NCBI RefSeq assembly: GCF_019264485.1
Contig: NZ_JAHVAA010000014.1
Span: forward strand, 558,001 to 622,000
DNA length: 64,000 bases
DNA from: Sediminibacterium sp.
GTDB lineage: Bacteria > Bacteroidota > Bacteroidia > Chitinophagales > Chitinophagaceae
Reading direction: 5' to 3'
In this document: one piece after another, positions 1 to 18,927 of the stretch
Layout of the letters: each line of letters starts with the position of its first letter
How positions within the stretch are numbered: position 1 is the stretch's first letter
Notes under the pieces: model-generated
Database searches by the model: none
The model's input: the letters and a program-made list of their open reading frames with translations, nothing else
What the model was told of the DNA's origin: nothing
Program-made: the position numbers and the translations under genes

Positions 1-725
1 TCGATCACTGAACTGGTATAGATACCTCTGGTAAAATCGCCTCTCCATGGAACAAAATGTACACCTGCACCTTCTCCAGTTTCAGATAGTGGCGAATCGG
101 TTTGTAACTGATTGAGTGAAGCAGTAATTTCTTTAATATGCTGATGGTTCAGCGATTTATATGCCTGTATATTATTAGCCCTCCAGCTAAAATGCGATGT
201 GTTGCTGAGCGACTGCCCCGCCCCTGTTGATCCGGTAATACCGGTTGTATAAACATCACTTAATACGCCCGCTTTAGCAAGTGGCAACAAAGCCAATTGA
301 ATGGCTGTTGCAAAACATCCGGGATTGGCTATATTTTGTGCAGTTGCAATTGCTTCCTTATTCAATTCGGGCAGTCCGTACACAAAAGTTTTTTCTCCAT
401 GTGCTGCAGTTGCTGGTAAACGAAAGTCCTGTGAGAGATCAATTATTTTTGTTGTGGAAGGAATGGCATGCTGGTCTAAAAACTTTCTGGCATCGCCATG
501 GCCTACACAGAGAAACAACACATCAGCATCGGCATATGGTTCATGGCTAAATAGCATTTCCGTTTCACCGAGTAAATCAGCATGTACGGTGTACAGTGGT
601 TTACCTGCATTACTGCTGCTGTGTATATTCACCAGTGCTGCCTGCGGGTGATTCAGCAAAAGTCTGATCAACTCACCACCGGTATATCCTGCCGCACCTG
701 TAATAGCTACTTTAAGTTTTTTCAT
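1..725 (-). CDS. argC: N-acetyl-gamma-glutamyl-phosphate reductase, 3' end cut by window edge
   Basis: ArgC makes N-acetylglutamate semialdehyde, the third step of arginine biosynthesis, using NADPH. About 241 codons from the start are present; the C-terminal third lies outside the window. The start MKKLKVAITGAAGYTGGEL shows the glycine-rich Rossmann loop. The catalytic cysteine sits in NPGCFATAIQLAL, and the family motif STGAGQSLSNTSHF follows. The ATG overlaps the argG stop as ATGA, indicating translational coupling in one minus-strand operon. The annotation is firm; only the 3' end is missing. Confidence 0.96.
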   Translation of the reverse strand, partial: MKKLKVAITGAAGYTGGELIRLLLNHPQAALVNIHSSSNAGKPLYTVHADLLGETEMLFSHEPYADADVLFLCVGHGDARKFLDQHAIPSTTKIIDLSQDFRLPATAAHGEKTFVYGLPELNKEAIATAQNIANPGCFATAIQLALLPLAKAGVLSDVYTTGITGSTGAGQSLSNTSHFSWRANNIQAYKSLNHQHIKEITASLNQLQTDSPLSETGEGAGVHFVPWRGDFTRGIYTSSVI

Positions 726-1945
726 GACTGATCGGCTTTGATGCTATGGTATATAGCAGTCTGGTTACCAAATATTTTGGAAAACCCTCTTACATCTTCA
801 CCTGTCCATCCGCTGTTCATCTCACCATATTTTCCAAACTTGCTACTCATCAGGTCATTTGGCGATTCTATACCGATTACAGTAAAGCGATAGGGCATTA
901 GTTGCACAAATACATCGCCTGTTACCTGCTCCTGTGAGTGTTCCAGAAAGGCTTCAATATCTCTCATCACAGGATCGAGTATCTGTCCTTCATGCAGCCA
1001 GTTGCCATAAAATTGTGCCAGTTGATCTTTCCAGCTCAACTGCCATTTGGTGAGTACATGTTTTTCCAGTGCGTGGTGTGCTTTGAGAATAACCATTGGT
1101 GCCGCTGCTTCGAAACCCACACGGCCTTTGATTCCGATGATGGTATCACCTACATGTATATCTCTTCCAATACCAAATGCACCAGCAACAGATTGTACAT
1201 ACTGAATGGCTTCTGAAGGATGTGCAAAATGCTGGTCATTTACGCGTCTGAGTTCTCCCTTTTCAAAACCCAGTTTTATTTCTTCGGCAGCCGATTTGGT
1301 TACCTGTGTGGGCCATGCTTCTTCCGGCAGCATCCCTTTTGATTGTAATGTTTCTTTACCGCCAACACTGGTTCCCCACAATCCTTTATTGATAGAATAA
1401 GCTGCCTTATCAAAATTCATTTCCACTCCTTTTAATTTCAGGTAGCTGATTTCTTCTTCACGGCTCAATTTCATATCGCGGATAGGAGTAATAATCTCTA
1501 CCCCCGGTATCATGATATGAAATACCATATCGAAACGCACCTGATCGTTACCCGCTCCTGTACTGCCATGTACCACTGCTTTTGCGCCTAATTTCCTGGT
1601 ATGTTCAGCAATATGCAATGCCTGGCTCAGTCTTTCTGCACTTACACTTAATGGATAGGTATTATTCTTCAATACATTGCCATAAATGAGGAATCGGATG
1701 ATGCTATCGTAATAAGTTTTCACTGCATCAACAGTGGTATGCGATTTTACACCCAGTTTATAGGCATGAGCTTCTATCTGCTCCAGTTCTGCTGCGGTGA
1801 AACCTCCGGTGTTTACAATTACACTGTGTACTTCATATCCTTTTTCATCGGTGAGGTATTTTACACAGTAAGACGTATCCAATCCGCCGCTAAAGCCCAA
1901 TACAACTTTGGTGCCGGCAGGAAGTGATGTGGGTAGGTTGCTCAT
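722..1945 (-). CDS. argG: Argininosuccinate synthase
   Basis: ArgG joins citrulline and aspartate with ATP to give argininosuccinate. The 407 residues match the family length. The N-terminal PP-loop SGGLDTSYC (about residues 19-27) binds ATP, and STGAGNDQVRFD further on is typical of ArgG. It lies 38 bp downstream of a GNAT acetyltransferase and overlaps argC by 4 bp, so all three are probably one transcript headed by the leader peptide near 2.8 kb. The start at MSNLPTSLPAG is preferred because it directly precedes the first beta strand. Confidence 0.97.
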   Translation of the reverse strand: MSNLPTSLPAGTKVVLGFSGGLDTSYCVKYLTDEKGYEVHSVIVNTGGFTAAELEQIEAHAYKLGVKSHTTVDAVKTYYDSIIRFLIYGNVLKNNTYPLSVSAERLSQALHIAEHTRKLGAKAVVHGSTGAGNDQVRFDMVFHIMIPGVEIITPIRDMKLSREEEISYLKLKGVEMNFDKAAYSINKGLWGTSVGGKETLQSKGMLPEEAWPTQVTKSAAEEIKLGFEKGELRRVNDQHFAHPSEAIQYVQSVAGAFGIGRDIHVGDTIIGIKGRVGFEAAAPMVILKAHHALEKHVLTKWQLSWKDQLAQFYGNWLHEGQILDPVMRDIEAFLEHSQEQVTGDVFVQLMPYRFTVIGIESPNDLMSSKFGKYGEMNSGWTGEDVRGFSKIFGNQTAIYHSIKADQS

Positions 1946-1983
1946 ACGATTCTTTGCTTTGCTTATATAATAATACTGACAGG

Positions 1984-2688
1984 TCAGAGATTAAACAGGT
2001 GATGAAAAAACGATTTGGGTTTGATACTGGTTCCACCATTTTCTTTTTTACGAAAAAGGCGTAACAGTGTATGCTGCTTCAATTTCATAAAGCGCTCATA
2101 TATTTTCGACTTCCTGCTGAAAGCTGATGAAGTTTCTTCGGGTTCGTAATGATCGGCAGGATCGTACAACATGGCGGTACAAAAACAATTCTTTCTGTCT
2201 TTGCTCATCAATACATCATAATTCACACAGCTTTTACAACCGGCCCAGAATTCCTCATCATCGGTAAGTTCACTATACGTTACAGGTTCATAACCCAGAT
2301 CGCTGTTTATTTTCATCACAGCCAGACCTGTTGTAAGACCGAATATTTTTGCTGTAGGATATTTTACCCTCGACAGATTGAAGATGGTTTGTTTGATCAG
2401 TTTGGCCACTCCACTTTTTCTGAATGGGGGTGATACAATGAGTCCGCTATTGGCCACAAATGAATCATGACCCCATGCTTCAATATAACAGAAGCCCACC
2501 CAGGTACCATCGGGTAAGAGTGCAATGACGGCTTTGCCTTCATTCATTTTCATAGCTACATAATCGGGACTGCGCTTGGCAATACCGGTTCCACGTGCTT
2601 TTGCTGATGATTCCATTTCATCAGTAATGGTTTGCGCATATCGGGTGTCGCCACTATTGGCTACACGAACAATGATATTTTGTTCCAA
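1984..2688 (-). CDS. GNAT N-acetyltransferase heading the arginine operon (possible N-acetylglutamate synthase)
   Basis: A 234-residue GNAT-fold protein. The acetyl-CoA loop is seen around PPFRKSGVAKLI (residues 87-98), and the fold continues through GLAVMKINSDLGY. A C-terminal cysteine set (C151, C154, C168, C170; CxxC and CxC) suggests a metal site, which is unusual for a plain GNAT. It is the first structural gene before argG and argC, and no classical ArgA or ArgJ is visible in the window. Its position makes N-acetylglutamate synthesis the most economical guess; that role is inferred, not shown. The basic C-terminal tail has no recognised function. Confidence 0.8.
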   Translation of the reverse strand: MEQNIIVRVANSGDTRYAQTITDEMESSAKARGTGIAKRSPDYVAMKMNEGKAVIALLPDGTWVGFCYIEAWGHDSFVANSGLIVSPPFRKSGVAKLIKQTIFNLSRVKYPTAKIFGLTTGLAVMKINSDLGYEPVTYSELTDDEEFWAGCKSCVNYDVLMSKDRKNCFCTAMLYDPADHYEPEETSSAFSRKSKIYERFMKLKQHTLLRLFRKKENGGTSIKPKSFFHHLFNL

Positions 2689-2759
2689 CTTAAAAGAATT
2701 AAATAAACGTAAAGGGAACGACAGCTACCTGTCAGAAAGAGATTCCGGGGAGTTTTCCA

Positions 2760-2799
2760 CTGATAGGGGCAAGTGCCAGTTGCTCGTCCTATCAGCAAC
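2760..2799 (-). promoter_or_regulatory. Mutually exclusive leader-RNA hairpins before the arg operon
   Basis: Read on the minus strand, CTGATAGG (2795-2788) pairs perfectly with CCTATCAG (2767-2760), with an inner GCAA/TTGC helix. Alternatively GTTGCT (2799-2794) pairs with AGCAAC (2784-2779). The two helices share bases, so they cannot form fully together. Both 5' arms overlap the end of the leader peptide, so a ribosome's position would select between them. A further GACAG/CTGTC hairpin lies at 2720-2733. No clear U-tract follows the main hairpin, so the termination or sequestration mechanism is unknown. Confidence 0.5.
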
Positions 2800-2839
2800 C
2801 ACGTCGGGGTCGCGGGAGAAAGTTAAAAGCAGCTTCCAT
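2792..2839 (-). CDS. Arginine-rich leader peptide upstream of the arg operon (putative attenuator)
   Basis: A 15-codon reading frame, MEAAFNFLPRPRRGC then TGA, lies 103 bp upstream of the GNAT start in the same direction. Three of the last six sense codons are Arg (CGA, CGA, CGT), two of them adjacent. This is the classical layout of a ribosome-stalling leader peptide for the pathway product. The stop codon lies inside the 5' arm of an 8-bp hairpin and inside a competing 6-bp hairpin. No Shine-Dalgarno is visible, as is normal for this phylum. Function is inferred from codon content, position and overlap with the hairpins. Confidence 0.6.
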   Translation of the reverse strand: MEAAFNFLPRPRRGC

Positions 2840-3023
2840 TGAAAACACCTGACGGGGTGAATTCAATAAGAATGATAAATAATTGATCAGGATCTGCTTC
2901 ACTTTATTAACTGATTATGCTTTGTGGTTGTAAAAGTATAACAGTTTGGGGTTATAGTGGCTAAATTTTTTATGAAAGGATTATTAAATCTCTATTTTAA
3001 ACTTACGGTTGTTAGCATAGAAA

Positions 3024-3050
3024 AGCCGTCTCGCCTGAGGCGGGACGGCT
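3024..3050 (-). terminator. Terminator after the TonB-type barrel gene
   Basis: AGCCGTC and GACGGCT arms enclose an inner CGCCTgaGGCG stem. Read on the minus strand the hairpin is followed by TTTTC. It sits 29 bp after the stop at 3079. Its core closely resembles the terminator at 12462-12494. Confidence 0.75.
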
Positions 3051-3078
3051 CTCTGTATTGTTTTCAGTTTATATATTA

Positions 3079-5922
3079 TTACATACCACCACCCCTCATC
3101 ATCCTCATCTGCTGCATATTACCACCCGGTATCATCATATTTGGCCCACGCTGTTGTTGTTGCTGGTTGGCACCAAAGCGACGCAGGTTATAAGTAAAGC
3201 TTACCATAAAATACCTTGTCAGCACCCTTGTCTGAACGTCCTGAATAGTATTGCCGGTAATATTTCTGGTTACACTTACATTCTGGTTCAGTAAATCGAA
3301 CATATAGAATTTAAGTTCGCCTGCTTTATTTTTCAGCATCTGTTTAGATAAACTTGCATTCAACAGGGGAATACTCGTATTATAACCACTGCTTCTTCCT
3401 CCATTATAGATATAATCAAAATCAATCGAGAACACCCAGCCGCTTTTTGAATAAGCTGTGGCTTCAGTAGAAACGGTTTGCGTAAAGAAGTCGCCATTCT
3501 GTTGCGGCTGCAAAGTGTATCGCGCCATACTGAATGAAGAATTGGATGAGAAGTTCATATCAAACCCTTCTTTCAGGTTGGTGGTCCATGAAACCGTTCC
3601 ACCTAAAGTGGTATTCCTTGTATAGTTGCTGGCATTATTGATCAATGTCTGCGACTGGTTTCGCGACACATTGGCAATCAGATTCAGATTGCTCTTTGGT
3701 CTTTTCAGCGGGAAACCATAGTTGAACACACCATTGATATTATAAGTACCACTCAGGTTTACCGGCATGGTTAACTGTGCACCGTTTGGCTGAAAGGTGG
3801 TTGCATTCTGGATATCGTTCTGTATAAAGTTGGCATTGATGGTGGCAAAAATAAGTTTCTGTGTAAACACATCAAATGAATTATACAGGAAACGTACGCT
3901 GTGTGTAAACTGCTGTTTCAGATTCGGATTACCTGTTCTGATGTTCAGCGGATTGCTGTTATCCGCTACAGGTTGTAACTGTTCTGCACTTGGTTGTGAA
4001 GTACGGCCATTGTAGAATATACGCAGGCTTTTTGTTTTGGTAAACTCGTACCTGAAATTAGCCGCAGGAAACAGGTTTACAAAATGCTGTTTGATTACCG
4101 TGTTTTTGGTCACATTATTACTGGTAAGATCACCTACCTGTACACCAGACCCAATACTGAAATTGTATTTAGCATTTTGCAGACGATAGTTCACCGTCAT
4201 TCTGTTAGAGCTGAACGTATTTTCGAACGTGTTGGTAAGATTAACTACAGGTACATCATATTTTCCCGAACCTGAATTAAATTCCATTGTTTCTCTGCCT
4301 GAATTATTCAGGTTATAAGAATAGTTATAATTGAATTCGAGTTGCTGGTTTTTAGCGATGGGTTCCGTATAAGAAAGCGTGGTACTGATGTTTCGTGTAT
4401 CGCGATTGGTAGCATACACCTGATCAATCGTATCGCTGTACGCCGGTCTGTTGGTTGGATTATACTGGTTACGTGAGTAATTGGTACCAGTTCCATCATT
4501 GGCACTTCCACCGGTATTGATATTGAGTGAGTAGGTACGCCCTCTTTTAGGGAAACGGTGACGGAATGTTGCGTCGATATTTCCATTAAACCCATTGTTC
4601 TTACGGACAGATTGTGCATCGGAACTGTTCAGTGCAGTTACTTTTCCTCTGGTGGAAGCAGTCTGTTGTAATGTCTGCGACCAGGTATCCTGGAAACTGA
4701 TATTCGGACGGATGATCAGCGAATTTGCTGAATCGAAATTATGCTCAATATTAAAATTGATCCGGTGATTTTTATTGTATGTTTTTGATGACTGTGTCTG
4801 GTCATTGAAAATAGACGAATCAGGTGCGCCAGGAATCAGGTTCTGTACAAAACTTTTCTGATCGCGATAGGTTTTCTGGTCATTGTAAAAATAACTTCCC
4901 GAGAACTGTGTTTTGGGGCTCCATGTATCACGGTAGTTTATACCACCGGCCCAGGTATTCACCAAGCCTCCACCGCCGCCACTACCTGTTAAACCCTGAA
5001 CAGCGCCACCGCCTCTGTTTCCACCACCACCAAAATTTCCACCACCGAGCGAGCCCAACATATCCTGCACAGAGAAATTCTGTTTGTTTACATTATTGGC
5101 CTGACCTGTAAACGTAATCTGACGATCGCCATTGAAGCGGCTGAGGCTAAAACTGTTATCATATAAACCTTCATCGGCATTGGCACCAAAACCCAATGTA
5201 CCCCGGCCGAAATATCCTTTGCGTCTGTCTTTTCTGGTCGTGATATTAATAGTTCGCACACGGTTGCCATCATCAAAACCGGTAAATGCACTCTGATCGC
5301 TTGCCTGATCAAATACCTGAATCTTGTCAATTACATCCGGTGGCAGGTTTCTTGTCGCCATACGTGGATCATCACCAAAAAATCTTTTCCCATCTACCAG
5401 TATTCTTTGCACCTGCTCGCCCTGTGCGGTTATATTACCATTCTTGTCGACCTGTATACCGGGTACTTTTTTCAATAAATCCTCCGCTACTGCGTTGGGT
5501 TTTGTTTTGAAGGCAGAAGCCGATACTTCCATGGTATCATTCCTCATTCTGATGACCGACTGTGTTACGGTAACGTTACCAAGGTCATTGGCAGCAATTT
5601 TCAAATAAATATTGCCCAGGTCAACCGAATTATTGGTTTTGGAGAAAACAATCTTTTTAGAAAAAGGCTCATACCCCTGAAACTTGATATCTACAATCAT
5701 TTCCCCGAATGTGATATTACTGATGAGGAAACTACCATCGGCCTTGGTCAGCCCAAAAACATCCAAAGTAGAATCTTTGGCATCTAATATGGTGATGGAA
5801 GCGTCTTTTAATGATTGTTTACCGACTGTATCCACCAGTTTACCCTTTAGTGTGGCACTGGTTTGCGCCGTTGTAGTATGGGCAATAAAAAGGAATACAA
5901 TAGCGGTTAGAATTTTGGTCAT
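3079..5922 (-). CDS. Outer-membrane TonB-dependent-receptor-like beta-barrel protein
   Basis: A 947-residue protein with a signal peptide ending near TTTAQ, then a CarboxypepD-regulatory-like domain (about 22-105) and a plug-like region containing LLKKVPGIQVDKNG and RILVDGKRFFGDDP (about 140-190). A glycine-rich linker (about 290-325) and a long barrel of the OMP_b-brl_3 type follow. The tail is odd: glutamine-rich, then methionine- and glycine-rich, ending MRMMRGGGM. No SusD partner is adjacent, so a nutrient substrate cannot be assigned. Such barrels are common in Bacteroidota and may act in transport or envelope processes. Confidence 0.85.
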   Translation of the reverse strand: MTKILTAIVFLFIAHTTTAQTSATLKGKLVDTVGKQSLKDASITILDAKDSTLDVFGLTKADGSFLISNITFGEMIVDIKFQGYEPFSKKIVFSKTNNSVDLGNIYLKIAANDLGNVTVTQSVIRMRNDTMEVSASAFKTKPNAVAEDLLKKVPGIQVDKNGNITAQGEQVQRILVDGKRFFGDDPRMATRNLPPDVIDKIQVFDQASDQSAFTGFDDGNRVRTINITTRKDRRKGYFGRGTLGFGANADEGLYDNSFSLSRFNGDRQITFTGQANNVNKQNFSVQDMLGSLGGGNFGGGGNRGGGAVQGLTGSGGGGGLVNTWAGGINYRDTWSPKTQFSGSYFYNDQKTYRDQKSFVQNLIPGAPDSSIFNDQTQSSKTYNKNHRINFNIEHNFDSANSLIIRPNISFQDTWSQTLQQTASTRGKVTALNSSDAQSVRKNNGFNGNIDATFRHRFPKRGRTYSLNINTGGSANDGTGTNYSRNQYNPTNRPAYSDTIDQVYATNRDTRNISTTLSYTEPIAKNQQLEFNYNYSYNLNNSGRETMEFNSGSGKYDVPVVNLTNTFENTFSSNRMTVNYRLQNAKYNFSIGSGVQVGDLTSNNVTKNTVIKQHFVNLFPAANFRYEFTKTKSLRIFYNGRTSQPSAEQLQPVADNSNPLNIRTGNPNLKQQFTHSVRFLYNSFDVFTQKLIFATINANFIQNDIQNATTFQPNGAQLTMPVNLSGTYNINGVFNYGFPLKRPKSNLNLIANVSRNQSQTLINNASNYTRNTTLGGTVSWTTNLKEGFDMNFSSNSSFSMARYTLQPQQNGDFFTQTVSTEATAYSKSGWVFSIDFDYIYNGGRSSGYNTSIPLLNASLSKQMLKNKAGELKFYMFDLLNQNVSVTRNITGNTIQDVQTRVLTRYFMVSFTYNLRRFGANQQQQQRGPNMMIPGGNMQQMRMMRGGGM

Positions 5923-6109
5923 GCTCAGTTTATTATGAATTACGAATCTAATAAGTGTATTTGACTGTCAGAAACACTAAAAGATTAACGGAAAGCTATA
6001 AGGATAGTTGGAAAGCCTGCTGTTAAAATCGGTGAAGCATAAAACTCTATAGGTCGCTCGGTCAATAAAGCAGAGCAATCCAGATAGATAATGACAGCAT
6101 CGATTAAAA

Positions 6110-9100
6110 TTAGCTGAAAAGATACTCTACATCTTCCCTCGTGAGATTCTTCACAAAACCCTCATCATCAGTAATCAGTTCACGTGCAAGACTTCTTTTA
6201 CGGTCTTGCAGTTTGAGTATTTTATCTTCTACCGTATCGGTACAAATCATGCGGTAAGCAAAAATATTCTTTGTTTGTCCGATACGATGGGTTCTGTCGA
6301 TGGCCTGCTGTTCTACTGCCGGGTTCCACCAGGGATCAACAATGTATACATAATCAGCAGCGGTTAGGTTTAAACCCACACCACCTGCTTTTAATGAGAT
6401 GAGGAACACACGGCAAGTATCATCATTCTGGAATCGCTGAATAGCTCTTTCTCTTTCCATTACGGTACTGCTACCGTCGAAATATTCATATTCAACCCCC
6501 AGTTCTTTCATTTTTTCTTTGATCAATGCCAGCATGCCCAGGAACTGCGAGAAAATAAGTGCTTTGTGATTACTGATATTCTCTGTGATTTCTCTTCCTA
6601 TTTCTTCCAGTTTCACCGATGCGTTCGGAAATTTTTCTTCGTCTTTGATGATGGCAGGGCTGTCGCAGATCTGTCGCAGTTTCATCAATCCCTGTAAAAT
6701 AGTCAGTTGCGATTTTTGTATCCCCTGGTTATCAACTACACCTAAAATTTTATCCCGGTAATCGTTTCTGAATGCATCATAAATCCGACGCTGTTCATCA
6801 CCCATTTCGCAGAAGAGTACCATTTCCTGTTTTTCAGGAAGGTCTTTTGCCACCTGCTCTTTTGTTCTGCGGAGAATAAAAGGAAAAAGCAATTTGCGTA
6901 AATGTTCTTTCTGCTCTTTCTCACCAAACTTGTCGATTGGAATAGAGAATTCCTGTTTGAAAAATTCTACACTGCCCAGCATACCGGGGTTGAGAAAATT
7001 CATCTGAGCGTAAATATCAAAAGTATTATTCTGTAATGGCGTACCACTTAAGCAAAGTCTGTTTTTTGCTCTTATAAGGCTAGCTGCTTTTGTTACTTTA
7101 CTGGATGGATTCTTGATGGCCTGACTTTCATCAAGTACCACATAATCAAATGCCACTTCCACAAATTGTTTGATATCGCTTCTTAATGTACCATATGTGG
7201 TAATAATAACATCCGCCTCAGTTGCTGCCAGGTTTTCACGGGTTCTTTGTCCGCCATGATGTACATAAAAACTTACTTCCGGTGTAAATTTTTTAATCTC
7301 ATTCTGCCAGTTGAACATGAGTGTGGTAGGACAAACCACCAAAGCTTTTAATGAGCCATTCTCCTGTTTGAGGTGATAGAGAAAACTCAATGCCTGTATG
7401 GTTTTACCCAGACCCATATCATCGGCCAGGATACCTCCCCACTGTACTTCTCTCAGATAGTTGAGCCACTGAAACCCGCTTTCCTGGTAAGGCCGGAGAA
7501 TAGATTTCAAATGTTCAGGTGCGGCTATCTCTTTTATGGAATGATTTTCTTTCAGCCGATCGTATTTTTCTTCGAGCTGAAAGAAAAGTTCTTCTTCATC
7601 GCGCTGCATGTATAACTCTTCTACCACACTAAAATGGTATTTGCTGAGTTTCATTGAACCTGACTTGCCTTCTCCCACCCTGAAAAGCAATGAGTATTTT
7701 TTTATCCATTCTTCGGGAAGAATACCCAGTGTACCATCACCCAACTGTACAAACTGCTGTTTATTACTCAATGCTTTTTTTACTTCATCAACAGTTACTT
7801 TCTGTTCACCAAAATGAATCTCTACTTTAGCATCAAACCAGTCTGTATTACTGCTGATATATATTTTAGTTGATGGTTTGGCAGTATTAAAGCGGAAATT
7901 TTTCAGTGCTTCAAAACCATAAACAGGAATATTCATTTCCTTCACGGCATCTACAAAAAGGAAGAACCAGTTATTGCGTAATACCTCTGTTCCCTTTAAT
8001 GCCAGTACATCTCCTTCCGCCGGTCGTATAAAGTGCGAATGAAGTGATTCTATTTTTTGTATAAACTCTCTTTCTGCTTCAAGATTACGCTGAATAACGA
8101 GTAATTTATCTTCTACAGGTATGATAATCTTTTCCTTATCTATTGAACGTACATCATAACCCTTATAATTAAATACAGGCTGAAAGAGCAGGTACTCTCC
8201 TTTTTCTTTCAGTAATACTTTCACTTCGGGTTTAATATCTCTTACTTCTTCCTTCTGTACATTTCCAAAATGTACATTGAATTCTTTAGATAGAGGCAGT
8301 ATGAATTGCTGCAACTGAGCAGACCAGTCTTCTGCCGCTATAACAATTTTTCCTGTGGGCAGAAATTTTTCCAGCACCAATATATCTTCTGTTCGCTGCC
8401 AGGTAAAGAACTGGTTATGGTATTTAAAAAACAGTGACGAATTGCTTTCATTCTCTGCAATATTAAGATCAGCCAGCGGCAGCTTTACCCGACAGTTGAT
8501 TTCATACCTGTCTTTCTGGTAACTTACTTCAAACTCAGGACTAATGAATGATGTAACAAGTTCAACCGGCTGAAGATTAGCCGTTGTAAATGATTTACGC
8601 TCAGGTAAAGTAAAAATGAATTTACTGTCTGCAAGATCAATAAATAGTTTTTTAATCTTGGGATGCAGGTATTCATTCATCAGGTGCCTGGTTTCTTCAG
8701 GCAGTTCATCGTTATGCTGTTGAATAATATTTTCCCAAATACCGCTGAAAGGAGAATTACGATCGAGGTAACGGCTCACTTCTGAAGGCATGAGCTTTCT
8801 TAATTGCTGCAGGGTTCCTTTATCATCTTCATTAAATACTTCTGTATTAACAAATCTTGAAAGGTCGAGTTTGGTTACTTTACCTACATAAGATGTCTGG
8901 CTTTCATCCGCTTCGCCCTGTACCGCTTCTAACTGTACGTATGGATATTGTTGTTCGTTGAAAGTTACTACTACACCCAATTTCAACACTTCTTTTTCCC
9001 GTTCTTCCAGTTCTTCAACCAGTGTTGTTGGTTTTGTTTCTTCCTGTTTAGGTTTAAGGTCTGCAGTTGGATTTAAAGAAACTCTTTTAATACTGGTATC

Positions 9101-9871
9101 GAGTACCCGTAAAAAAGGTTTGCCTTCCGCATAGGTAAATTCAAATTTCCCTTTGATATCATCGCTCAATGAGTACCCGTATAAAGCAAGCAGTTTATTC
9201 TTTTCCTTGTCCCAGTTACGAATACTGTCGAAATAAGCCGGGCCATAATTATGTAGCAACTGTAATAACACAATATCCTTGTGTATGCATAGGGGGTGTT
9301 CTGTATCGGAAGAGCAGGTACAACTGGTATCAAAATTTCTTTCTTCATTTTTCTGCAGCAGTATCCTGAATACTTCTCCCTCAAATTCCAGTTCAGCGAG
9401 TACGCGTTCATCTTTTGCTTCGATGATATTGGAGCGGCTGCTTCTTAAAAAATCTTCTGCTTTTTCAACATTCTGTTGCGATGATAACATTTTGATCAGT
9501 TTAAGATCTAATTGTTTCATTTTTACAACAGTATGTTTCTGATTGTAACTCGTTTCTTTTTCTCCCAGTTGATTACGGTCGAGTAAATCCTGCAGATGAA
9601 AAAGTGCTCCGGCTTTATGGCGGCAGATTTCTGAAAGGTTATATGGGCATGAACAGCGGAGCGATAATGTTTTAGGATCTTTAAACTGGTTGATATGTAC
9701 TTTATAAAAAGTAGCATAGCCATCATCTTTTACCCTGAAGACCACATTGGTCATCAGTTCATCATATTCCACCAGTTCTACATTGCCCAGTGCATGAATT
9801 TTTTTCCCTCTGCGGATCACTTCTTCGGTGCCGCTATTGTAAATATGTTTAACCAGATACGGAAGCGCCAT
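6110..9871 (-). CDS. SNF2-family helicase with two SWIM zinc fingers
   Basis: A 1253-residue Swi2/Snf2 ATPase. Helicase motifs are clear in the C-terminal third: ILADDMGLGKT (motif I, about residue 815), DESQAIKN (motif II), LCLSGTPLQNN (motif III), SLKAGGVGLNLTAADYV (motif V) and DRTHRIGQ (motif VI). The N-terminus has a SWIM finger (C73, C75, C83, H85) and a second CxC...CxH set (C184, C186, C195, H197). The long middle region fits the bacterial SNF2-associated domain. It probably remodels or translocates on DNA or nucleoprotein; the target is unknown. It is transcribed alone. Confidence 0.92.
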   Translation of the reverse strand: MALPYLVKHIYNSGTEEVIRRGKKIHALGNVELVEYDELMTNVVFRVKDDGYATFYKVHINQFKDPKTLSLRCSCPYNLSEICRHKAGALFHLQDLLDRNQLGEKETSYNQKHTVVKMKQLDLKLIKMLSSQQNVEKAEDFLRSSRSNIIEAKDERVLAELEFEGEVFRILLQKNEERNFDTSCTCSSDTEHPLCIHKDIVLLQLLHNYGPAYFDSIRNWDKEKNKLLALYGYSLSDDIKGKFEFTYAEGKPFLRVLDTSIKRVSLNPTADLKPKQEETKPTTLVEELEEREKEVLKLGVVVTFNEQQYPYVQLEAVQGEADESQTSYVGKVTKLDLSRFVNTEVFNEDDKGTLQQLRKLMPSEVSRYLDRNSPFSGIWENIIQQHNDELPEETRHLMNEYLHPKIKKLFIDLADSKFIFTLPERKSFTTANLQPVELVTSFISPEFEVSYQKDRYEINCRVKLPLADLNIAENESNSSLFFKYHNQFFTWQRTEDILVLEKFLPTGKIVIAAEDWSAQLQQFILPLSKEFNVHFGNVQKEEVRDIKPEVKVLLKEKGEYLLFQPVFNYKGYDVRSIDKEKIIIPVEDKLLVIQRNLEAEREFIQKIESLHSHFIRPAEGDVLALKGTEVLRNNWFFLFVDAVKEMNIPVYGFEALKNFRFNTAKPSTKIYISSNTDWFDAKVEIHFGEQKVTVDEVKKALSNKQQFVQLGDGTLGILPEEWIKKYSLLFRVGEGKSGSMKLSKYHFSVVEELYMQRDEEELFFQLEEKYDRLKENHSIKEIAAPEHLKSILRPYQESGFQWLNYLREVQWGGILADDMGLGKTIQALSFLYHLKQENGSLKALVVCPTTLMFNWQNEIKKFTPEVSFYVHHGGQRTRENLAATEADVIITTYGTLRSDIKQFVEVAFDYVVLDESQAIKNPSSKVTKAASLIRAKNRLCLSGTPLQNNTFDIYAQMNFLNPGMLGSVEFFKQEFSIPIDKFGEKEQKEHLRKLLFPFILRRTKEQVAKDLPEKQEMVLFCEMGDEQRRIYDAFRNDYRDKILGVVDNQGIQKSQLTILQGLMKLRQICDSPAIIKDEEKFPNASVKLEEIGREITENISNHKALIFSQFLGMLALIKEKMKELGVEYEYFDGSSTVMERERAIQRFQNDDTCRVFLISLKAGGVGLNLTAADYVYIVDPWWNPAVEQQAIDRTHRIGQTKNIFAYRMICTDTVEDKILKLQDRKRSLARELITDDEGFVKNLTREDVEYLFS

Positions 9872-10114
9872 ACATCAATCAGTTGTTAGCAGTAAACAGG
9901 TAAGTTGGCAATTGGCCATACTATACCCCGCTCACCCTTGAAAACAATATTGCCACTGCGAAAAGGGCAATTTGCAAAAGTAAAGGAAAGCAACTGAGTT
10001 AAAGAAGGAAAAAGAAAAGAATGTGGATGAAATGTTTGTTAAGGTTAGATTATGGCCGATGGTCTATAGACTATGGTAGAAAGTTTATTGCCATGGTCTA
10101 TGGACTATCAACTA
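9872..10114. repeat. Gap with CTATGGAC-type palindromic repeat
   Basis: The 243-bp gap between the SNF2 gene and comB holds no convincing gene. Around 10051-10118 it carries degenerate copies of GGTCTATAGACTATGG and GGTCTATGGACTATC, the same word family seen at 25949-26006 and 32602-32634. The frames crossing it are low complexity and look non-coding. Confidence 0.6.
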
Positions 10115-10837
10115 TCAGCCGCAAACCAGATCACCATTCTTATAAATGGGCAATACATTGGCCATATCGGGTGTTACGCAGTATTCAAGATCCGACTCCA
10201 GGCCATAAGATGCCAGCCTGTGCCAATGGGTAGTTCTGCGTATAAACTGGTGCATATCGTTCTGATGGAGGCCGTACATATCGGCTGCCATCAGGCTGCT
10301 GTCGCAGTGAATGGTAAAATGTTCTTTGATGCGATGTATGACTGCACCTGCAAACATGGCGTCTTCCAGGTTAAAACGGTCTTTCCAGGCAGAACAGCCA
10401 AGGATTACATTTTTATTTTGTGCAACAAGGTATTCACATACGGCAGATATATTGGGAAATGACCCTGTTATTACTTCTGAAGCTCCCTTATTCAGTGCCA
10501 TATGCAGCAATTTGGTACCATTGGTAGTGGTGAGTACCAATGTTTTACCTTCTACAAATGAGCGTGGGTATTCTGCAGGGGAGTTTCCATGAGCCAGTCC
10601 GGGAATTATTTTACCGTCTCTTTCACCGGCAGTAATTCCACCTGTCTGTATACCAATTTCTATACATTTATCTACTGCATCCACCGGAATGACTCTTTTT
10701 GCACCATTATACAATGCGGTTGCAATGGTGGATGTAGCCCTGAATACATCAATGATTACTACTACACTGTCTGATACATCATAAATATCAAGCAGCCTCG
10801 GAGAAAGAATGGTATACAAAGTAGGTTTTGCACTCAT
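10115..10837 (-). CDS. comB: 2-phosphosulfolactate phosphatase
   Basis: ComB-family Mg-dependent phosphatase that converts 2-phosphosulfolactate to sulfolactate. The family block IDVFRATSTIATAL is near the N-terminus; TTNGTKLL and GNSPAEYPRSFVEGK follow. The ATG at 10837 (MSAKPTLYT) is preferred over a TTG three codons upstream, because that TTG is part of a perfect TATATTTG -7 box. In methanogens this enzyme belongs to coenzyme M synthesis. Here a role in sulfonate or sulfonolipid metabolism is possible but is inference; no other sulfonate gene is adjacent. Confidence 0.9.
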   Translation of the reverse strand: MSAKPTLYTILSPRLLDIYDVSDSVVVIIDVFRATSTIATALYNGAKRVIPVDAVDKCIEIGIQTGGITAGERDGKIIPGLAHGNSPAEYPRSFVEGKTLVLTTTNGTKLLHMALNKGASEVITGSFPNISAVCEYLVAQNKNVILGCSAWKDRFNLEDAMFAGAVIHRIKEHFTIHCDSSLMAADMYGLHQNDMHQFIRRTTHWHRLASYGLESDLEYCVTPDMANVLPIYKNGDLVCG

Positions 10838-10843
10838 GGGCTG

Positions 10844-10851
10844 CAAATATA
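10844..10851 (-). promoter_or_regulatory. -7 box TATATTTG of comB
   Basis: A perfect match to the Bacteroidota TAnnTTTG element ending 6 nt before the comB ATG, so the transcript would have almost no leader. The -33 element is weak. Confidence 0.45.
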
Positions 10852-10885
10852 CAGTCTATCTGAAAGCATTGTAACAGTTAAAAAT

Positions 10886-10907
10886 GGCCAGCCTCGACAA
10901 GCCGGCC
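10886..10907 (-). terminator. Probable terminator after ssb
   Basis: GGCCAGC and GCCGGCC form a hairpin with one mismatch. On the minus strand it is followed by ATTTTTAAC. It lies 22 bp beyond the ssb stop. Confidence 0.45.
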
Positions 10908-10929
10908 GTATCAGAAAGAAAGGCTACTA

Positions 10930-11262
10930 TTATTTTTTGGGGGTAATAATCAGCATTTCGTTGACATATATTTCTGTGACATTTCTTTTCACACCGGCTT
11001 TATCAGTATAACTGCGGTTCACCAGTTTACCATCTACTGCTATCTGTAAGCCTTTGGACAGGTATTTTTCGGCAAAATCAGCCATTTTACCCCAGGCTAC
11101 TATTGTATGCCATTGGGCCTCACTAACTTTATTGCCATTGGCATCCTTATAGTCTTCATTGGTAGCCAGACTCATATTGGCTACTTTGCGACCAGCTTCG
11201 AGTGTTTTGATTTCAGGTGATTGTCCAAGATGACCAATCAGCTGCACCCTGTTTTTCATCAT
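10930..11262 (-). CDS. ssb: Single-stranded DNA-binding protein
   Basis: An OB-fold SSB. The start MMKNRVQLIGHLGQSPEIK and the segment WHTIVAWGKMADFAEKYL are diagnostic. Reading from here gives about 110 residues, short for SSB because the acidic C-terminal tail with its terminal Phe is missing; it ends MLIITPKK. This resembles the short accessory SSB paralogs found in this phylum. An in-frame ATG at 11316 would add an atypical N-terminus, so 11262 or 11268 is preferred. Without the tail it may lack the usual SSB protein partners. Confidence 0.9.
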   Translation of the reverse strand: MMKNRVQLIGHLGQSPEIKTLEAGRKVANMSLATNEDYKDANGNKVSEAQWHTIVAWGKMADFAEKYLSKGLQIAVDGKLVNRSYTDKAGVKRNVTEIYVNEMLIITPKK

Positions 11263-11532
11263 ATTCATATTACATGATTTAGGTTTGAATAATCTGGTAC
11301 GAATATCTGACTGCATAAACCCTATAGCCGGAACTTATCCGTATACTTCCGATTAAAATCTCTTACCCGGAACTATACCTCAAACGATGTACGTGAAATG
11401 TGTTCTAAAAGGGATCAGGTAGAAATACATACCAACTGCTGCTACAATTACTTTATTTTTTAAAATCCATATAGTATAAGCATACGATTGGTGGTGATTA
11501 CGGTTATTTTCATCGTGAAGAAATTTCCGGCT

Positions 11533-11943
11533 ATGTCTACCAAACAAAAAAAATGTCTTACCTGTCAGCGCATATTAAAAGGGCGTATGGATAAAAAATT
11601 TTGTGATGATTATTGCAGGAGTGCTTTTAATAATAAAAAATACATGGCCGAAAGAGGATTGATTCGTCAGGTGAATCATTTATTGCTGAAAAACAGACGT
11701 ATTCTTGAAACTTTTTTAGAAGGCTCTCATTCTACTGTTACCATCATGCGGAAAACTTTATCGGCAAGGGGTTTTCAGTTCGATTTTTTTACCCACACTT
11801 ATTTTACGGCCGACGGCAAAAAATATGTCTGCTGTTATGATCATGCGTACAGCGAATTGTTCAACGAAGAATTATTGATTACGCGGATGACCAGCAAAAC
11901 AGAGAGCCTGTTTATTCCTTATAACGAATGCGAACGGGGATAA
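11533..11943 (+). CDS. Conserved small protein with N-terminal zinc-ribbon-like cysteines
   Basis: About 136 residues from MSTKQKKCLTCQRILKG. The N-terminus has CLTC and FCDDYCRSAFNN, four cysteines that could bind zinc, and the remainder is basic then mixed alpha/beta. The upstream in-frame ATG at 11488 adds a hydrophobic stretch unlike the rest, so the start at 11533 is chosen. It is transcribed divergently from ssb and its last 32 bp overlap the convergent RlpA-like gene. I recognise no named family and assign no function beyond possible nucleic-acid binding. Confidence 0.7.
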   Translation: MSTKQKKCLTCQRILKGRMDKKFCDDYCRSAFNNKKYMAERGLIRQVNHLLLKNRRILETFLEGSHSTVTIMRKTLSARGFQFDFFTHTYFTADGKKYVCCYDHAYSELFNEELLITRMTSKTESLFIPYNECERG

Positions 11944-12307
11944 GGGTATTACCACTGGTATCTAATTTTTTCATGGCGGCCCTGCTCAAACCTATTACCT
12001 GACCCAGACCAATCGGACCCCGGTCTACAATTTTTACAGTAACGGATGCCCCTGTTATGGTATGTGTAACCACCACCCTTGTACCGAACTTTAATTTTTT
12101 ATGCGATCCGGTAAATTTAACACTATCGTATCTGTTGCCACTGGCTGTTGGCAGTCCCTGCAATTGGTCTGCTATCATAATTGCCTGGCCTATTTCGGTA
12201 CCAATAGAACCAATATCATGTATACCAGGAGCAGTATGCTGTGTGGGTTTACATGCAAACAACAGCAGCATACATAAAATAATACTATATCGGGCAGTGG
12301 TTAACAT
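11912..12307 (-). CDS. RlpA-like double-psi beta-barrel lipoprotein
   Basis: A 131-residue lipoprotein with signal sequence and lipobox LLFAC, then a double-psi beta-barrel. TASGNRYD, LKFGTRVVVTH and VKIVDRGPI match the conserved RlpA core, including the Asp of DRGP. The usual N-terminal ASWYG motif is degenerate. RlpA proteins cleave or bind denuded peptidoglycan glycan strands at septa. There is no SPOR domain, so septal targeting is uncertain. Its 3' end overlaps the convergent neighbour by 32 bp. Confidence 0.82.
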   Translation of the reverse strand: MLTTARYSIILCMLLLFACKPTQHTAPGIHDIGSIGTEIGQAIMIADQLQGLPTASGNRYDSVKFTGSHKKLKFGTRVVVTHTITGASVTVKIVDRGPIGLGQVIGLSRAAMKKLDTSGNTLIPVRIRYKE

Positions 12308-12343
12308 TGGGTTCTAAAAATACATTTTAGTCTGCAATGTACC

Positions 12344-12450
12344 CTGCGGACTACTCTGTATTCTCATCTTCTCTGCAGTCCCTCCCTCCAATAGGGTGAC
12401 GTGAGTAAACCCACCGCAGAGAACATGAGAACACAGAGTTTACGCAGAGA
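12344..12450. repeat. Imperfect inverted repeat, CCGCAGAGAACATGAG family
   Basis: The left arm (about 12344-12376) and right arm (about 12415-12450) are inverted and share words like GCAGAGAA-ATGAGAA-ACAGAGT and CGCAG with scattered mismatches. The same core recurs at 13672-13763 on the other side of gcvT. No coding potential. Confidence 0.7.
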
Positions 12451-12461
12451 AGAACTACAAA

Positions 12462-12494
12462 AAAAGCCGTCCTGCCTGAGGCAGAACGGCTTTT
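12462..12494 (-). terminator. Strong bidirectional terminator after gcvT
   Basis: AAAAGCCGT and ACGGCTTTT arms surround an inner TGCC-TGA-GGCA stem. The minus strand continues with a run of T. It is 19 bp beyond the gcvT stop and shares its core with the hairpin at 3024-3050. Confidence 0.88.
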
Positions 12495-12512
12495 CAAATC
12501 AATTATAGATAG

Positions 12513-13598
12513 TTATGCAAAAGGAAATTTTGACACTTTTGCTTTTACGAGCGTGTTCCTGATATCAATATAAATATCTGTATCGATTGCCGTGAAGGCA
12601 GTATTAACATAACCCAGTCCAACAGCTTTATTAAGTGAAGGCACTTGTGTACCTGATGTTACTTTCCCTATAGTATTGCCAGCTGCATCTTTTATCAGGT
12701 AATCATGACGGGGGATGCCGCGGTCAATCATTTCAAAACCAACCAGCTTACGTGTTACGCCCTCTGCTTTCTGTTTTTCGAGTATGGCCCTCGCTGTAAA
12801 ATCTTTGGTGAATTTTGTGATCCATCCCAGTCCGCCTTCGAGTGGCGATGTGGTATCATCAATATCATTACCATATAAACAATAACCCATTTCCAGACGG
12901 AGCGTATCTCTTGCACCGAGTCCTATTGGTTTTAATCCCTGTGGTCCGCCAATTTCAAAAAGAGCATTCCATATTTTATCGGCTGCCCCATTACTGTCTT
13001 CAAAATAAATTTCCACGCCACCTGCACCTGTATATCCTGTGGCGCTTACCAGAACGTTCTCTACTCCTGCAAATACTCCTTTGGCGAAAGTGTAGTATTT
13101 GAGGTTCATGATATCCATATCGGTAAGTGGTTGCAACATCCTGGTAGCGTTAGGACCCTGAATGGCGAGCAGACAGGTTTTATCGCTTACATTATGCATC
13201 TCCACATTTTCTGTATTGAAACGACTGATCCAGTTCCAGTCTTTTTCAATATTTGATGCATTTACTACAAGCATGTACACTTTATTCTCTTCAATACAAT
13301 ACACAATGAGGTCATCTACAATACCACCTTCTTCATTGGGTAAACAACTGTACTGTGCCTTGCCATTACTAAGTTTGGATGCATCGTTGGAAGTAACACG
13401 CTGAATGAGGTCGAGGGCTTTGTCGCCTTTCAGAATAAATTCACCCATATGGCTTACATCAAATACACCTGCATTCTTACGCACAGCCGCATGCTCATCA
13501 TTAATACCTGAATAACTGATGGGCATATTGTAACCGGCAAACTCTGCCATTTTTGCACCTAATGCAATATGTTTCTCTGTGAAGGGTGTATTTTTCAT
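12513..13598 (-). CDS. gcvT: Aminomethyltransferase (glycine cleavage T protein)
   Basis: GcvT moves the methylene group from the lipoyl arm of GcvH to tetrahydrofolate, releasing ammonia. The 361 residues match the family. Motifs include [21 protein letters not shown], and [13 protein letters not shown] near residue 250. It is monocistronic here; gcvH lies 19 kb away at 32657. A TATTTTTG -7 box at 13619-13626 gives a roughly 20-nt leader. Both flanks carry related inverted repeats. Confidence 0.96.
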
Positions 13599-13618
13599 AT
13601 GCGTCTTTTATCGTGCCG

Positions 13619-13626
13619 CAAAAATA
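13619..13626 (-). promoter_or_regulatory. -7 box TATTTTTG of gcvT
   Basis: A perfect TAnnTTTG match on the minus strand, 20 nt upstream of the gcvT ATG. I see no convincing -33 element. Confidence 0.4.
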
Positions 13627-13671
13627 AGCGAAAGGATGATGGAAGCATAAAATGTTTTGAAATCAGTATTC

Positions 13672-13763
13672 CTCTGCGATAACTTAGTTATCTCATGTTC
13701 TCTGCGGTGATTTTACTCGAATGTTCACCGCAGAGAACATGAGGGAACGGAAGTTTCGCAGAG
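13672..13763. repeat. Inverted repeat with 19-bp perfect core, CCGCAGAGAACATGAG family
   Basis: CTCATGTTCTCTGCGGTGA at 13692-13710 is exactly inverted at 13725-13743. The outer arms (CTCTGCGA..AACTT..GTT) continue the pairing with gaps. It lies between the TraB/GumN-like gene and gcvT and could fold into a long hairpin. It is related to 12344-12450. Confidence 0.8.
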
Positions 13764-13767
13764 AGCT

Positions 13768-14592
13768 TTATTTGAAAGATGGAGCTACACAGTATGCATG
13801 GCTGGAGCCGCATACTACAAAGACTCTTTCCCCTTTTTTGGTGAGTTCTTTTACTGCTGCTACCAGCTGCCGGTTACGGATATCGTTTGATGTGGCCATG
13901 AGTGTTGCCAGGTAACCGGGTAATTCATATTCATCAGATACTTCTCGCCAGTCTGTACCTGCGGGGAAATATTTTTTCCAGGCACGGTCTACATCGGCCA
14001 CTGTTTTGATACTGTCTTGCAAACCCACATGAGCTGCGCGTTTCAGGTATTCTTTAATGAAACGATCTGGTGAAGATGGTTTACCGAAACGAAGATTGCC
14101 AAAATAGGGATTGAGTATTTGCTGTAAAGCAATCTGTTCGCGTGTAAAATAATGTTGCAATGAATCGGCCAATGCTTTTTTGGAAAGATCCCAGTTCATG
14201 ATTTTCACACCATCCCTGTGTGCCAGTGCTTTTAACATCCCTCCTTCTCCCAGTTCTTCCACAGGATCCATAAAAGGCGGTAGCAGAAACCCCAGCCGGC
14301 CTTCTACCAGTGCGATTGTGGGTTGAAATTCGCTCCAGCGGTTTTCCATTTGTATAATCTGTGGATCCTTGCTGTTTTTGGTGTGTGTGGCGCCAAAGAT
14401 CAGTGCTGTATTTGTTTCTATAATATAAGGGCGTTCATGTTCTCCCGTATACTGAAGAAATGGCACAATACTGTCTGCTGTATTCCAGCCTGTTTGTGGA
14501 ACATAATATTTGGGAGACTTCCATGCCATCAGGTAAATGATAGACAGGATGAGTACTATTACAAATACAGATCGGAGTAGTAATCTTTTCAT
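13768..14592 (-). CDS. TraB/GumN-like protein with N-terminal membrane anchor
   Basis: About 274 residues from MKRLLLRSVFVIVLIL, a single N-terminal anchor or signal. Two histidine motifs fit the TIKI/TraB/GumN fold: ALIFGATHTK near the start of the domain and VFVVCGSSHAYC near the C-terminus. Glutamate in ALVEGR may complete a metal site. Enzymatic activity is unproven for most relatives. It lies downstream of a small lipoprotein in the same direction. The start at 14592 is chosen because translation from 14613 adds residues before the anchor. Confidence 0.6.
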   Translation of the reverse strand: MKRLLLRSVFVIVLILSIIYLMAWKSPKYYVPQTGWNTADSIVPFLQYTGEHERPYIIETNTALIFGATHTKNSKDPQIIQMENRWSEFQPTIALVEGRLGFLLPPFMDPVEELGEGGMLKALAHRDGVKIMNWDLSKKALADSLQHYFTREQIALQQILNPYFGNLRFGKPSSPDRFIKEYLKRAAHVGLQDSIKTVADVDRAWKKYFPAGTDWREVSDEYELPGYLATLMATSNDIRNRQLVAAVKELTKKGERVFVVCGSSHAYCVAPSFK

Positions 14593-14705
14593 ACAGATGA
14601 TTTGTGGTGACATGTTTGCAGGGCATAAGTTTATCCCTCCACCATCCCACCGGGTTAAGAACCGGTTGCAAGTGGGTGCATCATCCGAAAGCAGAAAATA
14701 AAATA

Positions 14706-15107
14706 TTATTGAAGCTGAACCTGACTGGAGTGGATGGTTACTTTAATTTTTTCACTTAATTCTTTGATACGATCATAAGCGGTTTCGCTGTTTACATCTT
14801 TATCAAACCTTATCCTGAGTCTGCCAGAGCGGAGTCTAACATATACTCTTGTATCATCTTCCAGTGAAATTGTTCCATCAAGGTCATCGGTATCAAGGCT
14901 GGAATTAGAGTCCAGTGCCTGATCTATTACCCTGGCTACCTGTTTGGTTTTTGAGCGGCTGAATTTCGCATCCATCCGGTATTGGTGATCACTTTCTTTT
15001 ACCGTGATCGTTGTTTTTCCATCGTGGATACGTTCGGAATGATAACGAACACATCCTGTTAATACCATGATACAGATGGCAATGGCAACAGTGTATTTCA
15101 TTTTCAT
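14706..15107 (-). CDS. Small lipoprotein of unknown function
   Basis: A 133-residue protein with signal sequence and lipobox LTGC, so it is probably lipidated at Cys19. The mature part is highly charged and hydrophilic, with repeated D/K/R-rich strands such as SLEDDTRVYVRLRSGRLRIRF. No catalytic motif is visible. It lies about 110 bp upstream of the TraB/GumN-like gene, same strand. The family was not recognised. Confidence 0.7.
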   Translation of the reverse strand: MKMKYTVAIAICIMVLTGCVRYHSERIHDGKTTITVKESDHQYRMDAKFSRSKTKQVARVIDQALDSNSSLDTDDLDGTISLEDDTRVYVRLRSGRLRIRFDKDVNSETAYDRIKELSEKIKVTIHSSQVQLQ

Positions 15108-15225
15108 GTGTTAGCTTTTATTGATTGGGGTTACATAGAATTCACCAATAAACATTACAGGCTGCTTGAATTTTGTTGTGGCATATTTCATGCATCTATT
15201 CTATGGTTTTGAAAAGAGAAGGGAA

Positions 15226-15255
15226 GAACCCCCTCGTGAGAACAGGACGGGGTTC
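15226..15255 (-). terminator. Terminator after the PspC-domain gene
   Basis: GAACCCC (15226-15232) and GGGGTTC (15249-15255) form a hairpin followed by TTTTTT on the plus strand and a pyrimidine-rich stretch on the minus strand. It lies just beyond the stop at 15279. Confidence 0.65.
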
Positions 15256-15278
15256 TTTTTTCCCAACTTCAACCATCT

Positions 15279-17498: not shown

Positions 17499-17518
17499 TT
17501 TCTGTTCAGTTTTGTTGG

Positions 17519-17881: not shown

Positions 17882-17963
17882 AGCCGGAGTTTTTAATTGT
17901 TCCCTTACTTTTCGGGGGGTAAGCAGAACAATGATTTATAAAATTGTTTCTGTTCTGATTTGG

Positions 17964-18155: not shown

Positions 18156-18229
18156 AACTCTTTATTTAATAGTGTTTTTAATTTTTCTTTTCTGAAGGGT
18201 TCGGGTTATTTCCCTTTCCTTTCATAACA

Positions 18230-18260
18230 CAAAGATGGGGGTATTTTTGGTACTATGCAA
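18230..18260 (-). promoter_or_regulatory. Promoter of the small protein-padR-pspC operon
   Basis: On the minus strand TTG (18260-18258) is separated by 20 nt from CATCTTTG (18237-18230), one mismatch from TAnnTTTG. This spacing fits Bacteroidota promoters. Confidence 0.5.
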
Positions 18261-18509: not shown

Positions 18510-18512
18510 AAG

Positions 18513-18848: not shown

Positions 18849-18927
18849 CGCTCATCACTGTATGCGGGCCATGGATCGCAGACAATAGTGACCACGAACA
18901 GTTTTTATCATCATAAAAAACAAAAAA

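Follow-up and report, generated by a model that had tools for sequence, protein, structure and literature searches.

Attenuators of the trp and his type, which work through the ribosome, have a leader open reading frame (ORF) with regulatory codons followed by an RNA structure. The same layout is found on the minus strand of a 64,000-nucleotide (nt) stretch of Sediminibacterium sp. (contig NZ_JAHVAA010000014.1; the whole stretch is called the window here), where a short ORF rich in Arg codons at its end lies upstream of a GNAT-argG-argC operon, and its stop codon lies within a hairpin, P1. Unlike the trp and his attenuators, the arg leader of Chitinophagaceae has no conserved terminator. On balance, and with a little more confidence than doubt, we read the element as an arginine leader that acts in cis on the GNAT-argG-argC operon of this family and senses the position of the ribosome, both the sensing and the output being proposed. 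Most likely, the leader makes the ribosome report arginine scarcity.

A close counterpart is the Salmonella speF leader, whose upstream ORF, orf34 (SpeFL), also has consecutive Arg codons and an arginine-dependent choice of RNA structure. As described in the available text of that study, a pause at the consecutive Arg codons allows a hairpin downstream of the stop and thereby the active RNA, and a pause at the stop opens the hairpin (PMC6386406). There the hairpin lies just downstream of the ORF stop, whereas P1 includes the stop codon, and speF is an ornithine decarboxylase gene of Gammaproteobacteria. The Arg codons that sense in speF are at positions 12-13, and changing the third, beside the stop, had no effect; the same text names no pseudoknot for orf34, unlike what is described below (PMC6386406). 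The actinobacterial LEU element upstream of leuA likewise has end-product codons in a leader peptide and a conserved pseudoknot, but it concerns leu instead of arg, the pseudoknot strand in the arg leader is the P1 loop, and its authors, in the part of the paper available, favoured a regulatory protein (PMC1262725). In the same phylum, hints of attenuation by leader peptides ahead of amino-acid operons have been reported for Flavobacterium psychrophilum, though the accessible portion of that report names no arginine leader or such fold (PMC9723704). No description of the Chitinophagaceae element was found among the best matches in the open-licence literature, and older, subscription or other work may have one.

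The leader ORF is longer than the 15-codon frame of the first-pass annotation. That frame does run from ATG 2839 to the TGA at 2792 and encodes MEAAFNFLPRPRRGC, with Arg at three of the last six codons, and the 103 nt given between the leader frame and the GNAT start codon (TTG 2688) are correct; the conserved frame, however, has 36 codons and begins at GTG 2902. In the same genus, 60 genomes were searched (the window's own included), 36 have the GNAT gene, and 30 loci were read. Of these 30 loci, 29, including the window's own, share a core of about 50 nt that is nearly invariant and sits some 100 nt ahead of GNAT, and the frame into the same TGA is open for at least 30 codons in 29/29 core-bearing loci. 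This long frame, together with the MKQ... starts of the same-genus relatives, makes GTG 2902 the best reading of the leader start. The end codons vary synonymously among the same-genus loci (CGT/CGC, GGT/GGA/GGG), which speaks for translation. The one same-genus GNAT locus that lacks the core has a frame that continues toward GNAT, and is either a loss or an assembly error.

The Arg codons keep a conserved position and favour CGA. The counts come from 183 distinct leaders (241 loci) that match CTGAYAGG...CCTRTCAGTG and are followed by a GNAT motif, a pattern-based set in which the invariance of the matched bases is by construction; 62 representatives of the 183 were picked by 5-mer similarity. 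A tandem CGA-CGN occurs within the last ten codons in 159 of the 183 distinct leaders. From the first base of its CGA to the first base of P1 there are 11 nt in 115 leaders, 17 in 41, 14 in 2 and 8 in 1, so that 156/159 tandem-bearing leaders (156/183 of all) have a spacing of 11 or 17 nt. CGA makes up 230 of the 516 Arg codons in the last ten leader codons, as against 5.6% of the Arg codons in 28 ORFs of the window, and CGA, CGT and CGC together account for 470/516. Among 34 tRNA genes located, the tRNA-Arg anticodons read were ACG, CCG and CCT, which leaves tRNA-Arg(ACG) as the single reader of CGA, CGT and CGC in a list that is incomplete, since no TCT tRNA gene was found although AGA is common. 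In Salmonella, slow reading of Arg codon pairs with CGA has been described, according to the available text (PMC4046918).

The hairpin that holds the stop codon is supported by covariation. Taken by itself, the window sequence folds with no more than moderate significance (minus strand z -2.47, plus strand z -2.04), and Rfam 15 has no match at gathering score in positions 1-20000, so comparison with relatives was needed; positions 2600-3078, taken up to E 10, give eight matches, all below their gathering scores and none convincing. A T-box is neither among these eight nor matched at gathering score in 1-20000. In an alignment of 74 sequences, window included, the outer helix of P1 is paired in every cell; one pair varies (C-G 37, U-A 31, U-G 6) and the other seven are invariant. 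Cells with a double change number 85 against 30.6 in shuffles, and slid versions of the helices pair in 32-41%, in an alignment that was fitted to the structure of the covariance model, which favours that structure. Two of the five covariation measures are matched by a few shuffles (11/500 and 7/500). One sequence (25 bits, without GNAT) was dropped between the previous alignment, A4, and this one, A5. The inner helix, P2, has two pairs that change on both sides (G-C 48, A-U 18, G-U 2; and C-G 47, A-U 22, U-A 2, G-C 1), a nearly constant third (C-G 70, U-G 3, U-A 1) and a fourth that is unpaired in 48/74.

The helix CTGATAGG/CCTATCAG of the first-pass annotation is thus present, contains the stop codon as it had proposed and covaries in relatives. 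The second helix that it proposed as mutually exclusive with the first, GTTGCT/AGCAAC, fares differently: it forms 6/6 pairs in the window, yet is complete in 26/183 leaders and 5/62 representatives, and was rejected as a conserved competing helix. What stands of that annotation is an Arg-rich leader under selection, whose Arg codons keep a fixed distance from the stop, together with a genuine hairpin at the stop codon and a biosynthetic arg operon downstream; the frame length and the second, exclusive helix do not. Relatives keep both the Arg codons and the pairing, so the loss of conservation that would have spoken against it was not found.

The unpaired bases of the element could also be taken to suggest a metabolite-binding riboswitch or a protein-binding element, with the overlap with the leader stop codon being incidental, since ACGA after the 5' arm and T-G-N-A after the 3' arm are unpaired and invariant in the genus and the nearest genera. 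This would leave unexplained the Arg frame, the preference for CGA and the fixed spacing of codons and hairpin; other genera of the family keep the ORF and CGA-CGN while the RNA changes, and the Rfam search gives nothing convincing at or below gathering score. We regard it as highly improbable.

The second interaction that is conserved is of another kind: the P1 loop pairs with sequence further downstream, which in many cases forms the loop of a small second hairpin (H2). All 52 leaders with the loop ACCA have TGGT downstream, and 40 of the 70 with the loop TGGC have GCCA; the other 61 leaders have TGGT (25), GCCA (4), both (1) or neither (31). In the 62 representatives, complementarity between the loop and the 15-40 nt after P1 reaches z 5.85 against permuted partners, other regions staying at or below 2.6, and a two-dimensional scan peaks at the P1 loop (z 6.2) with all other region pairs at 3.6 or less. 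The variable base flanking ACC/GGT (n1-m1) pairs as C-G in 25, G-C in 11, A-T in 9 and T-A in 6 of 82 leaders, that is 51/82 Watson-Crick plus 4 G-U, against 29.3 by permutation (0/5000 as high); among the representatives it is 25/37 against 13.4 (0/5000 as high). The two positions next to it have little or no covariation of their own. Among 81 leaders with TGGT, one pair of the H2 stem around this motif is preserved in 75 and another in 73 (0/2000 permutations as high for each), and a third in 47 (10/2000). The innermost candidate pair is unsupported (37/81; 463/2000 permutations as high), which suggests that the contact is often loop to loop. On the evidence of these alignments, the contact is a predicted kissing loop or pseudoknot.

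Among the same 81 leaders, H2 lies a median of 25 nt from P1, and its end lies a median of 25 nt (interquartile range 23-27) from the GNAT start codon. In the window, the place of H2 is taken by the small hairpin TGACAGGTAGCTGTCG, whose terminal TGTCG (2723-2719) has a weak complementarity, with two G-U pairs, to the loop bases TGGCA. Pairing of upstream windows with the start region or the H2 region gives some z of 2.8-3.6 and no consistent pattern. A further candidate helix, P4, which would join the end of the leader ORF to the segment downstream, is at best marginal, being matched by 118, 334, 79 and 22 of 2000 permutations in four group tests.

The first-pass annotation had noted the lack of a U-tract, which holds only roughly. 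In the window the hairpin TGACAGGTAGCTGTCG is followed by TTCCCTTTAC and is terminator-like; this hairpin is seen in a few close relatives only. It raises the alternative of attenuation as in trp, in which CCTATCAG, released by a ribosome on the Arg codons, would pair with the 5' arm of a terminator ahead of GNAT and prevent termination. In agreement with this, CTGACAGG (2735-2728), at the small hairpin, resembles CTGATAGG and complements CCTATCAG at 7/8 positions, T is somewhat enriched after H2 (3.9 against 3.0 of 9, with at least five T in 31/81), and a second type of leader, described below, has an excess of terminator-like hairpins. In leaders with the P1 element, however, such hairpins number 26/183 by one criterion and 4/62 representatives by a stricter one (2.9% in shuffles), and the intrinsic terminator is not conserved; a third type has none. 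Pairing of the P1 3' arm with downstream sequence, as an antiterminator would have it, is possible in the window and its close relatives and shows no excess in the 62 representatives (z -0.6). A terminator/antiterminator model was rejected in general, as it fits the window's close relatives only, and we consider attenuation as in trp quite unlikely for the element. The output without a terminator that the first-pass annotation had suspected agrees with this lack of a conserved one, and its two options, Rho-linked termination and translation control, are both candidate outputs.

Transcription probably starts before position 2792, judging from promoter-like motifs. TAnnTTTG/A, a -7-like promoter motif of Bacteroidota, is found between -220 and -110 from the hairpin in 39/62 representatives as TAnnTTTG and in 50/62 as TAnnTTTR, for the most part ahead of the leader start. 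In the 62 upstream regions as a whole, TAnnTTTG is counted 52 times (7.3 in mononucleotide shuffles), most often 110-170 nt from P1. This enrichment, and TACTTTTA in the window, suggest that transcription starts upstream of the leader. A start downstream of 2792, which would have contradicted the first-pass annotation, was not found; the -7-like motif lies 110-220 nt upstream of the hairpin.

The leader peptide itself appears to be selected in part of the family. In a group of 32 distinct sequences, chosen by a THTK-like motif and equal length (14 of other lengths were excluded), the last 35 codons have synonymous differences (pS) of 0.59, nonsynonymous differences (pN) of 0.116 and a pN/pS of 0.20, which argues for selection on the peptide in that group. 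Arrest of the nascent chain would be one reason for this. An arginine attenuator peptide sits before an arginine gene in a eukaryotic system, unlike the present one. It is described, in the available text, as an arrest peptide of fungi that senses arginine (PMC8429421). Here, as with that peptide, TnaC or SpeFL, the leader peptide would stall the ribosome at or near the stop in response to high levels of arginine or of a precursor (ornithine or citrulline, for instance), and the RNA fold would read the stall. The 32 sequences fit such a peptide in that THTKQFAFHAPITSGVYAVGFDVFTFSRPRRRPxC is under strong purifying selection with synonymously variable codons, and numerous invariant residues are found 10-29 positions from the C-terminus, which would place them in the exit tunnel. 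The conservation of the motif is by construction, however, given how the group was chosen, and in Sediminibacterium and others the peptide shares only the Arg-rich end, its upstream part differing greatly. SpeFL homology was rejected, as 629/3000 shuffles reach the score of the group consensus. Arrest by the nascent chain therefore seems unlikely to us.

A spread of the element beyond the family is not supported by the samples searched. A covariance model finds it in 141/394 family genomes at E 1 or better and in 126 at 0.01 or better, and in a class-wide sample model R2 matched 4/395 genomes, all in the same family. A pattern scan of a collection of 84,980 species gives at least 117 stretches, of which 80 are listed; all 80 have Bacteroidota titles, mostly Chitinophagaceae or its genera. 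Among these 80, all but one stand before GNAT, which lies within 1.2 kb, and the sequence of the 80th ends early, with just 99 nt left. Downstream of the element, argG is on the same strand in 69/69 loci with at least 1500 nt, and an argC homolog in 55/55 with at least 2800 nt. In one genome, whose assembly may be contaminated, the element occurs twice, both times ahead of a GNAT gene. A general module for other operons was also considered for the element and rejected, as the window's own genome has one exact site and one model match, and the 80 listed loci, save the truncated one, precede GNAT.

Other genera of Chitinophagaceae have leaders of other types in the same place, with differing RNA sequences. 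The upstream regions of 40 GNAT genes were read, 36 from the family without a confident model match and four from other families. The 36 include 23 leaders ending RVRR or similar (type II), 11 ending RRPRI (type III), one weak leader of the type with P1 (type I) and one masked region; the four regions from other families have no such leader. CGA-CGN occurs near the stop in all 34 leaders of types II and III. Shuffle tests on one peptide per type find types I and III alike (0/3000), I and II marginal (16/3000), and II and III not alike (977/3000). The hairpins of types II and III were discerned by eye. Terminator-like hairpins are in excess in type II (7/23 against 5% in shuffles) and absent in type III (0/11). 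Since the other types keep CGA-CGN with other RNA, an arginine leader is probably common in the family, the RNA part having diverged.

The arginine leader is proposed to work as follows. The front of a ribosome reaches 13 nt ahead. When charged tRNA-Arg is scarce, the ribosome would wait at CGA-CGN, its leading edge at the base of P1, and most of P1 and the loop contact would stay intact. With ample arginine, ribosomes would continue as far as the stop codon UGA, where they would cover the 5' arm of P1, disrupting P1 as well as the loop contact. The fold of P1 and loop contact would be the ON state, allowing translation of GNAT or protecting the mRNA, as in Salmonella speF; the direction of this ON/OFF switch is suggested rather than observed, and so is its output, be it translation start, mRNA decay or Rho. 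With the 13-nt footprint, the ribosome front would be clear of P1 at the Arg codons in the 17-nt spacing class; at the UGA the ribosome would cover the 5' arm. The spacings from P1 to H2 and from H2 to the start codon lend plausibility to translation control without proving it. In Flavobacterium johnsoniae, initiation is tuned by RNA structure close to the start codon, and Bacteroidota mRNAs lack Shine-Dalgarno sequences, as far as the available text goes (PMC6847099).

Several observations weigh against this scheme. With CGA in the A site, the front of the ribosome would extend over the first two nt of P1 where the spacing is 11 nt, which blurs the separation of the two ribosome states, and trp-type logic would give the opposite direction. 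The tandem CGA-CGN is absent in 24/183 leaders (for example Niabella, PRPMRCPDC), and in 2/183 the last ten codons include just one for Arg. In the window itself the loop contact is weak (five base pairs, two of them G-U); of the 70 leaders whose loop is TGGC, 30 are without GCCA (neither motif in 27, TGGT in 3), and 31 of the 61 with other loops have neither motif, some of these having other complementary pairs. The type I element is in 126/394 family genomes at E 0.01, against 308 for GNAT, and 34/36 family regions without a confident match carry other leader types. Tentatively, the leader could be a two-part sensor, in which the conserved peptide and the tandem CGA-CGN position the ribosome and the RNA with two hairpins and a kissing loop controls translation of the first arg gene, which has a weak start codon, free of terminators. 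In that reading CGA-CGN would be read by one tRNA-Arg, going by the tRNA genes located, and the ribosome would open the RNA or keep it as it is.

The first gene of the operon encodes a GNAT-like protein, to which GNAT models of Pfam match weakly and below the cut-off (E 0.016 and 0.018) and PRK07757 of NCBIfam weakly (E 0.0037). The gene is present in 308/394 family genomes when searched with the protein of a relative (E 1e-20 or better), and the protein of Sediminibacterium goheungense, a named close relative, is 93.6% identical to that of the window. Its place at the head of an arg operon suggests that it may be an acyl-glutamate synthase not yet recognised as such. With the start picked by a position rule, the 183 leaders are followed by a GNAT start codon of TTG in 112, GTG in 59 and ATG in 12; the 171/183 with TTG or GTG make for an unusual conservation of weak starts. 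Between the leader and the upstream outer-membrane protein gene, a strong inverted repeat, AGCCGTCTCGCC/GGCGGGACGGCT (window 3024-3050, listed on the plus strand), is possibly the terminator of that gene. The features of the locus are collected in Table 1.

Table 1. Positions in the window of the arginine leader, its RNA elements and the operon downstream.
Feature	Position	Strand	Details
Promoter-like -7 element TACTTTTA (TAnnTTTR)	2931..2938	minus	28 nt before leader start codon
Leader ORF, VKQILINYLSFLLNSPRQVFSMEAAFNFLPRPRRGC	2792..2902	minus	GTG start, 36 codons and TGA; start by alignment with MKQ... relatives
Further Arg codon CGA	2812-2810	minus	read in leader ORF
Tandem Arg codons CGA-CGT	2801..2806	minus	first base 11 nt before P1
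Hairpin P1, 5' arm CTGATAGG	2788..2795	minus	holds leader stop TGA 2794-2792; covariation, 74 aligned sequences
Inner helix P2	2769..2783	minus	GCAA 2783-2780 / TTGC 2772-2769, apical loop CTGGCAC (2779-2773); two covarying pairs
Hairpin P1, 3' arm CCTATCAG	2760..2767	minus	covariation alignment
Small hairpin TGACAGGTAGCTGTCG	2719..2734	minus	where relatives carry the partner of the P1 loop; terminator-like match
GNAT-like acetyltransferase gene, first of the operon	1984..2688	minus	start TTG 2688
argG, argininosuccinate synthase	722..1945	minus	Pfam PF00764 3.6e-40, PF20979 1.4e-33
argC-like frame	3..725	minus	ORF; extends past window edge; argC name from the first-pass annotation

The cis-regulation of amino-acid operons in Bacteroidota is little described among the best-matching papers of the open-licence literature. 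A large part of one soil and freshwater family appears to sense its arginine supply through the position of the ribosome, with a loop-loop contact instead of a terminator. The RNA loop contact can be tested by simple compensatory mutations. If the reading is true, the element would offer a clean test of leader-peptide function in a phylum whose mRNAs, in the available text, are without Shine-Dalgarno sequences (PMC6847099).
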